From: Betaproteobacteria bacterium
GTDB lineage: Bacteria > Pseudomonadota > Gammaproteobacteria > Burkholderiales > SG8-41
Reading direction: 5' to 3'
Length of the DNA stretch: 64,000 nt
Assembly: GCA_028291945.1 (NCBI GenBank)
Contig: JAQGNH010000392.1
Coordinates: forward strand, 32,678 to 96,677
Shown: positions 36,078-41,450 of the stretch, one piece after another
How the letters are laid out: each line of letters starts with the position of its first letter
Numbering within the stretch: the first letter of the stretch is position 1
Translations under genes and position numbers: made by a program
Notes under the pieces: generated by a model
Databases searched by the model: none
Seen by the model: only the letters and a program-made list of their open reading frames with translations
What the model was told of the DNA's origin: nothing

Positions 36078-36130
36078 ATGGGGTGGCTGATGGGACTCGA
36101 ACCCACGACAACCGGAATCACAACCCGGAC
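36078..36130 (-). pseudogene. Displaced 3' portion of tRNA-His (att site)
   Basis: ATGGGGTGGCTGATGGGACTCGAACCCACGACAACCGGAATCACAACCCGGAC matches 41374-41426 with 3 differences; D-arm and 5' acceptor half absent. Confidence 0.9.
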
Positions 36131-36531
36131 GCCACAGATTCTGAATTTTGTTAAATCAACAGGTTAGGCAGCGCCGGCTCTTCCTGTGTCGATTTAATAG
36201 CCCCTGATGGCCTATCCTTCCAGCACACTTTTGACACAGCATTTCATACCGACGTCGCTTCCCATACTGTCCGCGGGGGAAGCGTTACTGCGACATGTAG
36301 GTGAGCCAGACCCGGACTAGCCTCATCGACGAGCTCAATTGAACGGATTTCGAACCGTTAATTGCCGCTCGAAAATCTGTCCGTGCTGCAGTCTTCGGAA
36401 TAAAGCTCTTTGCATCCCGCCAGAAGCGCCGAAGCGACGATCATCGCGTCTTAAATACTAAGCCCGTAACGAGCGGCAATTGCGGAACATCGCGACAGTA
36501 GGCAAGCTGGGTAAGCCATGTCAGCACTGAG

Positions 36532-37371
36532 GTGCTACAGTTCCGCCATAAACCACTCACAGCTGAGTCTAGTGTGAATCACGGCCTCGAGTACAACCGC
36601 CAGCTCTTGTTACTTGGTGCCAAGCGGAACGCAGTTCTTGAACTGTCGGAAGTGCAGCGTTATGGAACGGATAGCTACGGCGATCCTGACTACGTAACGA
36701 TTTACGGTTTGCGACCCGCCGACTGGTTCGCGAAGGGAGTCCGGCTCCTCGGGCGCACAGCGGTCGAATGCACCCGAGATGAGCTCGCCAACGCAGTCGG
36801 AAAAGAAATCGCGGCAATTGCTGCAAGTGGCGCAGAGGCGGCGCATGTCGTTTTGGACCCGTTTGCTGGGTCCGGCAACACGCTGTACTGGATCTTGCGC
36901 CACCTGCCTGGTGCGCGCGCTACCGGTTTCGAGCTCGATCCTAAAGTTTTTGAGCTCACCCGAGCCAATCTGTCGATACTCGGGCTTCCAGTTACGATCC
37001 TGAACGCCGACTACGCGAGCGAACTGTCCAATGTTGCACCTGCTACCGATGAGCTTCTGGTTACGTTCATAGCCCCACCTTGGGGCGAAGCGCTCAGCGC
37101 AAAGTCAGGACTCGATCTACGACGCACCACTCCGGCCGTAACCGAAATCGTTGACCTACTCACGAAACAGTATCGGCACAATCGGCTCGTATGCGCCGTT
37201 CAGGTTCACGAGCGACTTGATCATGCCGGTGTACGCGAAATTACGCAGCGCTTCGACTGGTCAGCGTTATCCATCTTTGATCTGAATCCGCCCGGAGAAC
37301 GGCACGGACTTCTTCTTGGCACAATCGGGTGGGTGCCACGACTCGGAGCTGCAGCAGCGAATCATGCATAG
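36532..37371 (+). CDS. SAM-dependent methyltransferase (PPWG motif)
   Basis: VVLDPFAGSGNTLYWILRHLPGARATGFELDP (motif I) and LVTFIAPPWGEAL (motif IV-like); GTG start uncertain. Confidence 0.75.
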   Translation: MLQFRHKPLTAESSVNHGLEYNRQLLLLGAKRNAVLELSEVQRYGTDSYGDPDYVTIYGLRPADWFAKGVRLLGRTAVECTRDELANAVGKEIAAIAASGAEAAHVVLDPFAGSGNTLYWILRHLPGARATGFELDPKVFELTRANLSILGLPVTILNADYASELSNVAPATDELLVTFIAPPWGEALSAKSGLDLRRTTPAVTEIVDLLTKQYRHNRLVCAVQVHERLDHAGVREITQRFDWSALSIFDLNPPGERHGLLLGTIGWVPRLGAAAANHA

Positions 37372-37459
37372 CTACGCTGCTGTGGCGTTCAATCGCCAGG
37401 ACGTCGCGGCACAAGTATGTGTGGTGCCGCTTATGGCCCGATAGCTGCCTGCTGCTTGG

Positions 37460-38850
37460 CGCTGCCCCAGTTGGTGTAACAGGGGACCTACGGATACAGG
37501 CGGAGCGCGTAATCGCATGATTACGCATCCCTGCTCTGCCATAAAACGCATTAGGACGAAAACAACGAGCGCCGCCTCAGCTCATGCCTACTTGTTTTCG
37601 TCATAACGCGTCTATGAGGCGGTCTTTCATCAACGAATTTCTATCCGCCAAGCGGTTTTGATCAGACAGCGTTTAATCATACTGCTGCCCTTGCAAGCGG
37701 GCGCATGCTGATTACCTCCACGGTTAAGTTGTTGCTCAATTCTCCGTGCTAATCCCCGAGCTAATCGCGATATCCCTTTTTTTTGCCACCATTTCTCATT
37801 GCGCGACGATACGAGACCAATCAAGATCACCAGCAACATCGCCTGAACAGTGCATCGATTGACGCGCAAAAAGTGACGGCGTAAAAATGAGTCTCACGTT
37901 GTACAGGTAGTTGGCATCCTGGCCGTTCGTTGCGAGCGGCGAAGCCAGCGCAGTGGTTATCGCAGCCGATCATCGCGATCGAGTAACACACGCCAGCTCG
38001 CCGCGTGGGAAGTAGCCAAGCCCAAGAGAAAGATTCAAAAGAGCGCGAGGTTAACCCGTATTGCCTCGTGCGCGCGCCTGCAAGGGCGTTCGGGAGAGAG
38101 TGACGCGCGTGGCTTGACAGTGCGCGTCGCAAGCCCTCGAGCTTGCAGAGAGACGGCCGTCCCCAAGACGGTCGCATAGGATTGCACAGTGGCCGTCGCT
38201 TCCTGGGCGGCCTGTCAAAGAGATCCCGAACGGGATCACCGAGCGTTCACGGCAAGTGAGCGCCCGGTCACGAGATCGAGCGAGTTTGTTGTCTCGCCTC
38301 GATCGTGGACGCGTGACGTCCAGTAGCAACGTGTCGGTCCGGTGCTCGATGCCAGACCGACACGTTTTCCGACATTGATTCCGAGAGTCGCCGCCTGTTT
38401 CGGTGCGTGACGTGCGAAGGCCGCACGCCGCCCGTGTGCCGCGAGCCTTGAGCTCGCGTGCACGCGACGTGGGGTAACGGCCGTAGCCGCTCACGCACAC
38501 AGCTATCGCCACCCGCACGCGCGTCGTTACTAGCGGGCCACCGCTAGTGACGTACGCGCTAACACGACCGGCGCGGGGTGCAAGTCCCGCGTGTCTGCGA
38601 ACTCGGAACCACGTGACGAACCTCCTGAAGGCGAGTCATGCCAGCTTTGCGATGGGTGCAATGCCCTCGCCGAATGATTCGCGTAACGGACCGATGAGAC
38701 GCGCCTTAACGGCGCTCCTTGAGTCCTGGGTTAATGACTCTCGCGACGGGCGATTCTGCAGGATCGCCCTCGCGACGCCTACAAGGCGGCGTGCGGCGCC
38801 GGCGAGCAGCAAAAACTTCCGCACGAAACGGGAGTGGTGTCCCGTGCTCA
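37460..38850 (+). ncRNA. Candidate large structured non-coding RNA (or structured ssDNA locus)
   Basis: More than 20 local hairpins including 11-18 bp stems; near-uniform G-U orientation on +; no convincing ORF; boundaries approximate, densest part 38041-38850. Confidence 0.5.
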
Positions 38851-38990
38851 ATCTTAGTCCTCGTGGCCGCTACGGCGTCACAGGCGAGCAGAAACACTTA
38901 CCTGACACGAACACACCAAGGCAGCACAGGCAGCACGGCAGAAACGCTTTACGGGACGAATGGAACGCTTTTCAAGAAAGGACCTGAATC

Positions 38991-39980
38991 ATGCGAGACA
39001 AACGATCACCGCTCCCGCCGTCGGTTCCCACTCTGGCGGCGGCGCTTCAAATCGCGGGCATGGATTGCCTCCCGCGTGTTCGCTCTCACTCACATGACAA
39101 GGACGCGCCCATGCGTGATCTGAACTACGCCTTGAAGCAGCTCTCCATGCGAAACCGTGATGGCAGCTTCGCGACCCAGGCCGACCGCCAGCACATCCTC
39201 AATCTCGTTGCCAATCAGCTCCACGAGATGGGGTTCCGGCACATGGACGCCCACAGCCTGAAGCCCAAGCACGTAGAGAAGCTCGTTGAGCGCTGGCTTG
39301 GCGAGGACCTGTCGGCGGGGACGCTCAAGAACCGGATGACGGCGCTGCGCTGGTGGGCCGAGAAGATCGGCAAGGAGAACGTTGTCGCGCGCAGCAACGA
39401 CGCCTACGGCATTCCGGATCGAGTCTTCGTGACCAATGTTTCGAAGGCCACCGAGCTTGACGCCGAGAAGGTCGGGCAAATTCGGGATGCCTACATCCAA
39501 ATGTCACTCCGACTGCAAGCCGCATTTGGCCTGCGCCGCGAAGCCTCGATCAAGATCATTCCGGCGCTGGCGGATCAAGGCACCTGGCTCGTACTCCAAG
39601 AGTCCTGGAACAAGGGCGGGCGAGAGATCAGACTTCCCATCCTCACGCCGGAGCAGCGCGATCTCCTCGACCAGGCCAAAGCACTTGCTCAAGGCAAGAG
39701 CCTCGTTGCGCCCGGCCATACCACCTACCGCGACTATCTCGCGCACTTTCGTTACGAATGCAAGCGCGTCGGCATTCACGCCTTCCACGGCCATCGACAT
39801 TTCTACGCGCAGGCGCGCTACAAAGCATTGACCGGTCACGAATGCCCGGCGCGGGGTGGCCCTACTTCCAAACAACTCACGCCCGAGCAGAAGGCCGCCG
39901 ATCGCGAGGCGCGGCAGACGATCAGTCACGAGATGGGCCATAACCGCGAACAGATCACTGCCGTGTATTTGGGACGCTGA
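38991..39980 (+). CDS. Tyrosine recombinase-like integrase domain protein (Phage_integr_N/Integrase_1 type)
   Basis: LRREASIKI, HAFHGHRHFYAQARY, HEMGHNREQITAVYLG give R...HxxR...H...Y; conserved-looking start MRDLNYALKQLSMRNRDGSFATQADR may be the real start at 39111. Confidence 0.75.
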   Translation: MRDKRSPLPPSVPTLAAALQIAGMDCLPRVRSHSHDKDAPMRDLNYALKQLSMRNRDGSFATQADRQHILNLVANQLHEMGFRHMDAHSLKPKHVEKLVERWLGEDLSAGTLKNRMTALRWWAEKIGKENVVARSNDAYGIPDRVFVTNVSKATELDAEKVGQIRDAYIQMSLRLQAAFGLRREASIKIIPALADQGTWLVLQESWNKGGREIRLPILTPEQRDLLDQAKALAQGKSLVAPGHTTYRDYLAHFRYECKRVGIHAFHGHRHFYAQARYKALTGHECPARGGPTSKQLTPEQKAADREARQTISHEMGHNREQITAVYLGR

Positions 39981-39992
39981 CGCACAACGCAC

Positions 39993-40337
39993 GTGCGAGA
40001 GCTGGCAGATAGCGAGATGAGTCACGCAGTCCCACTCACTCAAGCGGCCGCCGTCTTGGGGGTCGCCTATAAGACGGTGTGGAAAGCCGCCGCTACGGGG
40101 AAGATCAAGGCGTTCCGTGCGTGGCCAGGTGGGCCATGGCGCATATGGCAGCACGAGCTCGACCGCTTATTGCATAATGAGCACGGGCCGGCGCTGCCTC
40201 CAGATATGGAGGTTGCATGCCCCATAAGCGTGAAGGGAGCCGATATTGGTGGGTGCGTATCGGCGGAGTACGACAATCTGCTGAAACAGAGGACTTCGAA
40301 GCAGCGACGCGGATCGAGCGTGACGGCAACGAGATAA
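39993..40337 (+). CDS. HTH excisionase-like DNA-binding protein
   Basis: LTQAAAVLGVAYKTVWKAAATGKIKAFRAWPGGPWRIWQHELDRLL winged-HTH; overlaps the integrase start. Confidence 0.65.
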   Translation: MRELADSEMSHAVPLTQAAAVLGVAYKTVWKAAATGKIKAFRAWPGGPWRIWQHELDRLLHNEHGPALPPDMEVACPISVKGADIGGCVSAEYDNLLKQRTSKQRRGSSVTATR

Positions 40338-41350
40338 TTCAGCTGTCACGTCAGAAGGCCAAGATAGAGGCGATGCGCCTTGAATTGGTCGGCGCCAAAC
40401 CGGCGCGGTCGTGGAAAGAGCTTTGTGTTCGCTGGTCGAAGGAGAAAGCAGCAAAGGCGTCTTGGCTGGATGATCTGAGGATGATCGAGTGGTGGGGTCA
40501 GCATCTGGATCACATTACTGACATCCGCGTGATCACTCGCGAGCGGGTTGACGATGTCATGCGGACGCATCGCAGCGGCATAACCGTAGCATCAGCAGTA
40601 CCGGCCAATTCAACGGCTAACCGCTACGTGGCGTTGCTCTCCGCCATGCTGAATGCCGCGTGCAAGCGGTGGGACTGGATCGAGCGTGCCCCGCTCTTGA
40701 TGCGCTACCCAGAACCGGAAGGCCGCGAGTCGTGGCTGACGGTTACCGAGTGGCGCTTACTCGAGCAGCAGTGCCCCGAGCACCTGCGGCGGCCAGCGAC
40801 ATTTGCACTGGCTACCGGGTTACGCGATGCCAAGGTGTTTGGTTTGGAATGGCCACAGATAAACATGTCGGAGCGGTATTTGATGCACAAGGGAACCGGG
40901 AACAAGCTGGGCAACGTCATTCCGTTGAACGATACGGCCATGGCGGTGCTGCGCGAGATCCAGGCATCCCCGGTGCGTCATATGACGCGGGTGTTTACGT
41001 GGATGAAGCCAAAGAAGGTGGATGATGTTCTAACGTACACGGTCGAGCCGTTGAATGATTACGGTAAGGCGTGGTGGAAAGCGCTCGCGCGTGCTGGTCT
41101 GGGGCATTACGATGCAGATGGACGCTGGCGGGGGGAATTTACGTGGCATGGACTACGCCACACCTTCGCAACGTGGCTACGCAGCGGTGGTGCTCCCGAT
41201 TGGGCAATCGACGCTTTGGGAGGCTGGTCAAGGGCTGCAACACGCGAGCGTTATTCGCATGTGTACGTCGAGTCTCTGCGGCCGTTCGCGCAGATGATCG
41301 ACACAGTTCTGACACAGCAACCGGATATTAGAGCAGCACAACACCGGTAA
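40217..41350 (+). CDS. int: Phage-type tyrosine integrase
   Basis: ATGLRDAKVFGLEWPQI, FTWHGLRHTFATWLRSGG, LGGWSRAATRERYSHVY; ends next to tRNA-His. Confidence 0.92.
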   Translation: MPHKREGSRYWWVRIGGVRQSAETEDFEAATRIERDGNEIIQLSRQKAKIEAMRLELVGAKPARSWKELCVRWSKEKAAKASWLDDLRMIEWWGQHLDHITDIRVITRERVDDVMRTHRSGITVASAVPANSTANRYVALLSAMLNAACKRWDWIERAPLLMRYPEPEGRESWLTVTEWRLLEQQCPEHLRRPATFALATGLRDAKVFGLEWPQINMSERYLMHKGTGNKLGNVIPLNDTAMAVLREIQASPVRHMTRVFTWMKPKKVDDVLTYTVEPLNDYGKAWWKALARAGLGHYDADGRWRGEFTWHGLRHTFATWLRSGGAPDWAIDALGGWSRAATRERYSHVYVESLRPFAQMIDTVLTQQPDIRAAQHR

Positions 41351-41374
41351 GTCGTTGAACTGCAGGTGAGAAGA

Positions 41375-41450
41375 TGGGGTGGCTGACGGGACTCGAACCC
41401 GCGACAACCGGAATCACAATCCGGGACTCTACCAGCTGAGCTACAGCCAC
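41375..41450 (-). tRNA. tRNA-His (GTG)
   Basis: GTGGCTGTAGCTCAGCTGGTAGAGTCCCGGATTGTGATTCCGGTTGTCGCGGGTTCGAGTCCCGTCAGCCACCCCA; G at -1. Confidence 0.97.

Follow-up and report, generated by a model that had tools for sequence, protein, structure and literature searches.

A covarying structured element upstream of a tyrosine recombinase gene on a tRNA-His-integrated island, and its possible role in conjugative mobilization

Results and discussion

A conserved structured element 5' of the recombinase gene

The window, a stretch of 64,000 nt from a Betaproteobacteria bacterium, contains a noncoding region (37372–38990) flanked by the genes for a methyltransferase-like protein and an Integrase_1-type recombinase, and the last part of this region holds a structured element on the + strand that is real, new, deeply conserved and covarying. 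The element is likely to be an RNA. We propose, with a probability of about 0.55, that the locus constitutes a conjugative mobilization module with a tyrosine-recombinase-like relaxase, an origin of transfer (oriT) and a structured RNA, carried by a small tRNA-integrated island and organised like that of SGI1. This reading is based on the conserved order of the parts, the covariation, the linkage to a coupling protein gene, a 3' motif shared with plasmids, the existence of copies that lack the recombinase, and the precedent of SGI1.

Homologues of the recombinase were gathered from genomes, viral contigs and plasmids. Iterative nhmmer searches of 2 kb upstream found a core of ~270 nt (38657–38929 by the profile, extended to 38650 by helix P1) for 91 of the 106 distinct homologues, in almost every case immediately 5' of the gene. 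In close copies the similarity starts ~900–1300 nt upstream, continues to the recombinase stop codon and is then lost, indicating that the noncoding region and the recombinase move as one module.

The helices of the core are all given for the + strand. P2 (38701–38715) is paired in 96.6% of the cells with compensatory CG/UA/GC/AU pairs, and P3 (38721–38740) in 95.8% with AU/GC and GC/AU exchanges. A long-range helix CGUGCG/CGCACG (38790–38825) is 97–98% paired, and its innermost pair occurs as CG, GC, AU and UA. Since this helix, 38790–38795/38820–38825, overlaps the loop of a smaller stem at 38785–38800, the two probably form a pseudoknot. Hairpin P6 (38828–38845, loop AGUGGUGU) is 99% paired, nearly invariant and carries little covariation information; judged from the letters, which hardly vary, its loop GGUGU might form a second pseudoknot with ACACC at 38913–38917. 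It is followed by stem P7 enclosing hairpin P8 (38846–38889) and by the 3' motif AACACTTACC (38893–38902), which is found as AACACTNAYC in 92 of the 106 upstream regions.

In a 25-sequence MAFFT alignment the seven helices of the 3' half are paired in 91.9% of the cells, with a covariation of 0.254 against 0.103 ± 0.010 in shuffles, none of 500 of which reached it, and at most 0.087 when the partners were slid. P2 and P3 in the 5' half show a covariation of 0.454 against 0.218 ± 0.021. A covariance model of the 3' half, here called R1, has 81 matches in 1.05 Mb of loci fetched by the recombinase gene, all codirectional with and just 5' of a recombinase homologue. The alignment of these 81 sequences pairs in 95.9% of the cells with a covariation of 0.457 against 0.126, and leans towards the R1 structure because it was fitted to the model. 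In a stricter test, substitutions were re-dealt along the branches of a FastTree tree with the column rates kept, and pairs were scored by a G statistic with APC. Only four pairs are then significant alignment-wide, 38795:38820 in the long-range helix, 38847:38888 in P7 and 38868:38877 and 38867:38878 in P8, and all fall within the predicted helices. A plain MAFFT alignment of the whole core, made before the model, gives three (38795:38820, 38868:38877 and 38867:38878), and separate MAFFT alignments of the halves one and none in the tree-based test.

A cmscan of the window against Rfam gives only two tRNAs above the gathering cut-off, and nothing convincing was found in the region when searched to E=5. 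Conservation and covariation are both present 5' of related recombinases, and the suggestion in the initial annotation of a structured element borne by a mobile element, possibly of a new class, is retained. A bridge-RNA-like role in RNA-guided recombination was set aside, as a repeat search of the core against the attachment sites and flanks gave no convincing match.

Extent of the folded region and coding content

The initial annotation had described 37460–38850 as a near-continuous series of stem-loops and as a candidate giant RNA of ~1.4 kb. The hairpins listed there are present as far as they were checked. Compared with dinucleotide shuffles (ViennaRNA, 150-nt windows, z-scores on both strands), folding goes beyond chance only from ~38125 to 38800, with + strand z-scores of -4.3, -3.2, -4.5, -6.3 and -3.0 and mostly weaker values on the - strand; the strongest fold, at 38425–38574, has z = -6.3 on the + strand and -4.2 on the - strand. 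Positions 37372–38125 show no fold excess over the shuffles, with + strand z-scores from about +0.3 to -1.6 as in the adjacent genes, and hairpins in the 5' half of the claimed locus are therefore no more abundant than expected by chance. The upstream regions of 25 homologues have a mean + strand z of -1.4 to -1.9, compared with 0.0 in the recombinase coding sequences and -0.1 further upstream. The hairpin-dense stretch at 38125–38500 on the + strand (z down to -4.5) has partial similarity to two homologous loci (L070 and L071), and its conservation is limited to close relatives. Deep conservation is found only in the last ~440 nt, made up of the covarying core and the dyad described below, and with the fold excess restricted to 38125–38800 the giant RNA was rejected.

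For practical purposes the region is free of credible ORFs. Reading frames of 116–155 aa exist mechanically, a Pfam scan of one of them gave no match, and the relatives differ by indels in this region. The promoter evidence is weak, with one sigma-70-like site at 37859–37888, and a search for a conserved promoter upstream across the homologues gave no + strand excess. Copies in Oxalobacteraceae (L084, L085, L087, L092 and L094) have a promoter-like TTGCAA/TTGAAA-16-TAGAAT on the + strand, ~460–500 nt 5' of the dyad.

The tRNA-His island

The noncoding locus is one module of an island integrated at tRNA-His, with its own xis and integrase. A repeat search found a 51-nt direct repeat at 36078–36128, a copy of the 3' end of tRNA-His that is 94% identical to 41374–41424 and forms the left attachment site; the tRNA-His gene with the right attachment site is located at 41374–41450 on the - strand (ARAGORN and Rfam). 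The stretch bracketed by the repeats, 36078–41450, encloses on the + strand the methyltransferase-like gene (36532–37371), the noncoding region, the recombinase, an HTH_17 excisionase-like (xis-like) protein (39993–40337; PF12728, with TIGR01764 below cut-off) and a Phage_integrase protein (40217–41350; PF00589), and the locus is therefore part of a 5.3-kb tRNA-integrated island. An integrase ending beside a tRNA gene is also found 3' of some homologous modules (loci L070, L109, L121, L130 and L149). The methyltransferase-like gene has weak matches to Cons_hypoth95/Methyltransf_25, to type II methyltransferases and to the PADLOC profile mads_2, and is possibly defence cargo. Elsewhere in the same genome, contig C294 encodes a second, distant member of the recombinase family, ~30% identical, without an R1 match.

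The recombinase and its putative DNA site

The recombinase is an Integrase_1/Phage_int_SAM_2 tyrosine recombinase (38991–39980, + strand; PF12834 and PF12835) with the catalytic residues R-K-HxxR-H-Y. These show no variation among the homologues, and the tyrosine is residue 326 of the ORF starting at 38991. The initial annotation had left the start at either 38991 or 39111; the latter is probable, since residues 1–36 are unstructured in the AlphaFold2 model (pLDDT <50, against a mean of 85.9 for the model) and the homologues start at M41. A sequence profile search of the PDB gave no match. By fold the model matches tyrosine recombinases, best of all an integron integrase bound to attC (E 4.7e-6) with a TM-score of only 0.36, a value probably due to the orientation of the domains. 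The phage collection contains essentially no recombinase homologues, and a phage system was therefore rejected. One record, OR851053.1 (Salmonella phage S.Kent 1-2-1, 3144 bp), encodes half of a homologue and might in fact be a small plasmid.

Located ~100 nt 5' of the structured core is a long dyad, GCGCGTCGTTACT...AGTGACGTACGCGC (38519–38559), a candidate oriT core or recombinase site. Its form CGTYACT-N(6-24)-AGTGACG, with a variable spacer between the arms, is found in 88 of the 106 upstream regions of homologues and in 1 of 51 control windows, and the order dyad, structured core, recombinase recurs across Burkholderiales and Gammaproteobacteria. Six direct GTGACG repeats on the + strand between 37873 and 38618 (starting at 37873, 38100, 38313, 38407, 38547 and 38613) are candidate half-sites for the recombinase or relaxase, and between the dyad and the 3' motif of 79 homologous loci there are 57 forward and 7 reverse copies. 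By sequence, dyad and direct repeats look like half-sites for a DNA-binding protein, and for this part of the hairpins a DNA site bound by protein is the better reading.

The main rival to an RNA is a folded single-stranded DNA, where the region from the dyad to the 3' motif would be a site of the oriT or attC kind, its + strand folding while single-stranded during transfer and its hairpins being recognised by the recombinase. The nearest solved fold is that of an integron integrase, a binder of folded attC, and oriTs contain inverted repeats. The initial annotation had taken a G-U bias in the stems as favouring an RNA from the + strand, and across the homologues this bias is found in the helices of the 3' half (53 G.U against 13 A.C cells) but not in P2 and P3, which are neutral (4 against 5). 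DNA hairpins tolerate G.T pairs, and the bias of 53:13 therefore shows the strand and not the chemistry. Long-range, probably pseudoknotted covarying helices are on the other hand more typical of RNA, and SGI1 has an essential RNA at this position which is separable from its oriT (PMC9299015). We regard a DNA site without any RNA as rather unlikely.

Copies without a recombinase gene

A scan with R1 gave 47 matches in 28 out of 400 genomes of the order, and at the class level 9 of 274 genomes match. One of the latter, G644, has seven copies in a genome of 5.1 Mb (contig C2, loci L206 and L212), and genomes G005 and G100 have several each. Nineteen matches that were not obviously beside a recombinase gene were fetched with their neighbourhoods, and 18 of them have no recombinase homologue within ~3 kb, or within less at contig ends. 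A dyad is located upstream in 12 of the 18, in 10 of them within ~300 nt, and the R1 scores are mostly high, up to 150 bits, equal to those of recombinase-linked copies. Phage integrases, a serine recombinase and type I restriction systems are found among the neighbouring genes. Such copies are often located directly beside type I restriction-modification genes (L187, L188, L189, L193, L198 and L201), which suggests small mobilizable defence islands.

A 5' leader regulating the expression of the recombinase mRNA would explain why the element is codirectional with and just upstream of the gene, and why gammaproteobacterial R1 matches end at the start codon. The 18 copies of the core without the gene, most of them high-scoring, already contradict it and indicate that the element is not a leader, which makes this role very improbable. 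The same copies argue for a pair of site and RNA that can be served in trans. Decaying remnants may be among them. As they keep dyad and core together in cis, they also agree with the single-stranded DNA site considered above.

Plasmid homologues and DNA transfer

On plasmids of Vibrio (pSIO1, 4.9 kb), Pleionea, Psychrobacter and Acinetobacter, the recombinase gene precedes the gene for a VirD4-type coupling protein, in many cases with one small ORF between them. This protein is found in 46 plasmid records, all of which are typed as non-mobilizable. Of the 40 coupling-protein records listed, at least 29 are also among the recombinase records listed. The R1 model does not match the plasmid homologues, and no relatives of the core at the DNA level were found on plasmids; these keep only the 3' motif and a local fold. 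The motif AA[AC]ACTNA[AC]C is located 5' of the recombinase in 14 of 14 plasmids, with none on the reverse strand and none in equal downstream controls, and in most of the 14 a branched stem is predicted directly 5' of it. The adjacency to the coupling protein gene was seen only on plasmids, and a search of the chromosomal loci (Burkholderiales islands) found no coupling protein. A VirD4 homologue was not found in the fragmented genome of the window either, and the helper must thus come from elsewhere. In Shewanella baltica pSBP2_mcr4 (L160) the colistin resistance gene mcr-4.3 is followed ~700 bp further on by a homologous recombinase gene.

Where no other relaxase is known on a plasmid, the simplest role for a tyrosine recombinase that comes with its own dedicated coupling protein is that of a relaxase, and we lean towards this role for the recombinase, with the dyad as its oriT. 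The protein could also be an ordinary recombinase, since it keeps the core-binding domain and the full catalytic set, unlike MobK, TcpM and MpsA. The dyad would then be a site for multimer resolution or integration, the core an accessory region or a regulatory RNA, and conjugation would not be involved. Complete tyrosine-recombinase residues, a dyad with direct half-site repeats resembling a recombination site, and the frequency of the recombinase on plasmids would all fit. Against it stand the operon-like linkage to a VirD4-type coupling protein, seen repeatedly on plasmids without another known relaxase, and the presence of the module in chromosomal islands already equipped with an integrase, and we regard resolution or integration as distinctly unlikely.

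Proposed function

For the mobilization module we suggest the following course of events. The island would excise by its own integrase and xis, and the recombinase would act as a tyrosine-recombinase-like relaxase, like MpsA, MobK and TcpM, that binds the dyad and the repeats as oriT. The structured element would be transcribed as an RNA which helps to build the transfer complex or docks it to the coupling protein of the helper, as proposed for the sgm-sRNA of SGI1, and the excised island would travel by the secretion system of the helper. Where an element has only dyad and RNA, its mobilization would rely on a recombinase provided in trans. We put forward a place for the RNA in the transfer complex tentatively, at somewhat less than even odds.

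A wider proposal, which we consider doubtful, is that ribonucleoprotein relaxosomes are widespread, with a tyrosine-recombinase-like relaxase needing a conserved structured RNA encoded beside oriT, and with the pair of dyad and RNA also found alone in elements that borrow the enzyme. If so, the sgm-sRNA of SGI1 would be one member of a general principle and not a curiosity. The recombinase family would also provide a candidate relaxase for many plasmids and islands typed as non-mobilizable, including Acinetobacter plasmids. It offers dozens of natural variants with covariation-defined helices and a candidate oriT, and since small plasmids carry enzyme, RNA motif and coupling protein together, the role of the RNA can be tested with small constructs. 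No description of an RNA accompanying PF12834/PF12835 recombinases was found in the literature searched.

Comparison with known systems

The initial annotation had compared the locus with GOLLD, ROOL and HEARO, which like OLE are structured noncoding RNA elements, several of them on mobile elements. This analogy does not hold, as the core is much shorter, its gene partner is different and it has no match in Rfam. Integrons resemble the locus in that a tyrosine recombinase is found close to conserved dyads whose spacers vary, and their integrase is the best fold match. They differ in having an array of attC-bearing cassettes, while here no array is seen and each locus has a single dyad, whose distance to a covarying core is roughly constant.

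The known tyrosine-recombinase-like relaxases are TcpM, MobK and MpsA (PMC8152469, PMC9299015, PMC12857230). MobK of pIGRK and TcpM of pCW3 are, like the candidate studied here, relatives of tyrosine recombinases, and they are used for conjugation (PMC8152469, PMC12857230); in pIGRK a minimal oriT of 186 bp is located directly upstream of the MobK gene (PMC8152469, PMC12857230). These proteins have no core-binding domain and no RNA has been described with them, whereas the recombinase of the window has PF12834 in the same protein as PF12835 and the full catalytic set, and thereby differs from MOBM, described as a catalytic domain without a core-binding domain (PMC8152469).

A better analogue is the SGI1-type module, to which the locus is likened by its published organisation and not by sequence, so that membership is not claimed. 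SGI1 encodes MpsA and MpsB and has an oriT with inverted repeats (PMC6414798, PMC9299015), followed by the sgm-sRNA with a functional core of ~280 nt (mob coordinates 1295–1572) and then by mpsA (PMC9299015). The sgm-sRNA is essential for transfer, possibly by bridging to transfer proteins of the helper, and SGI1 is so far the only element for which an RNA has been suggested as an essential component of a conjugation complex, without a mechanism or a comparative structure (PMC9299015). Both modules have a protein of the tyrosine recombinase family, whose role in mobilization is here inferred, and a GC-rich inverted-repeat region upstream, represented by the conserved dyad and GTGACG repeats as candidate oriT. 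Order, strand and core length are the same, and the carrier is in both cases an integrative element with int and xis, here the integrase and HTH_17 genes between the tRNA-His repeats, that would depend on a helper. In SGI1 the DNA-binding and catalytic parts are split into MpsB and MpsA, whereas one protein has both in the island described here, and the RNA and dyad of the present family occur also without the gene, with a structure supported by covariation over many lineages.
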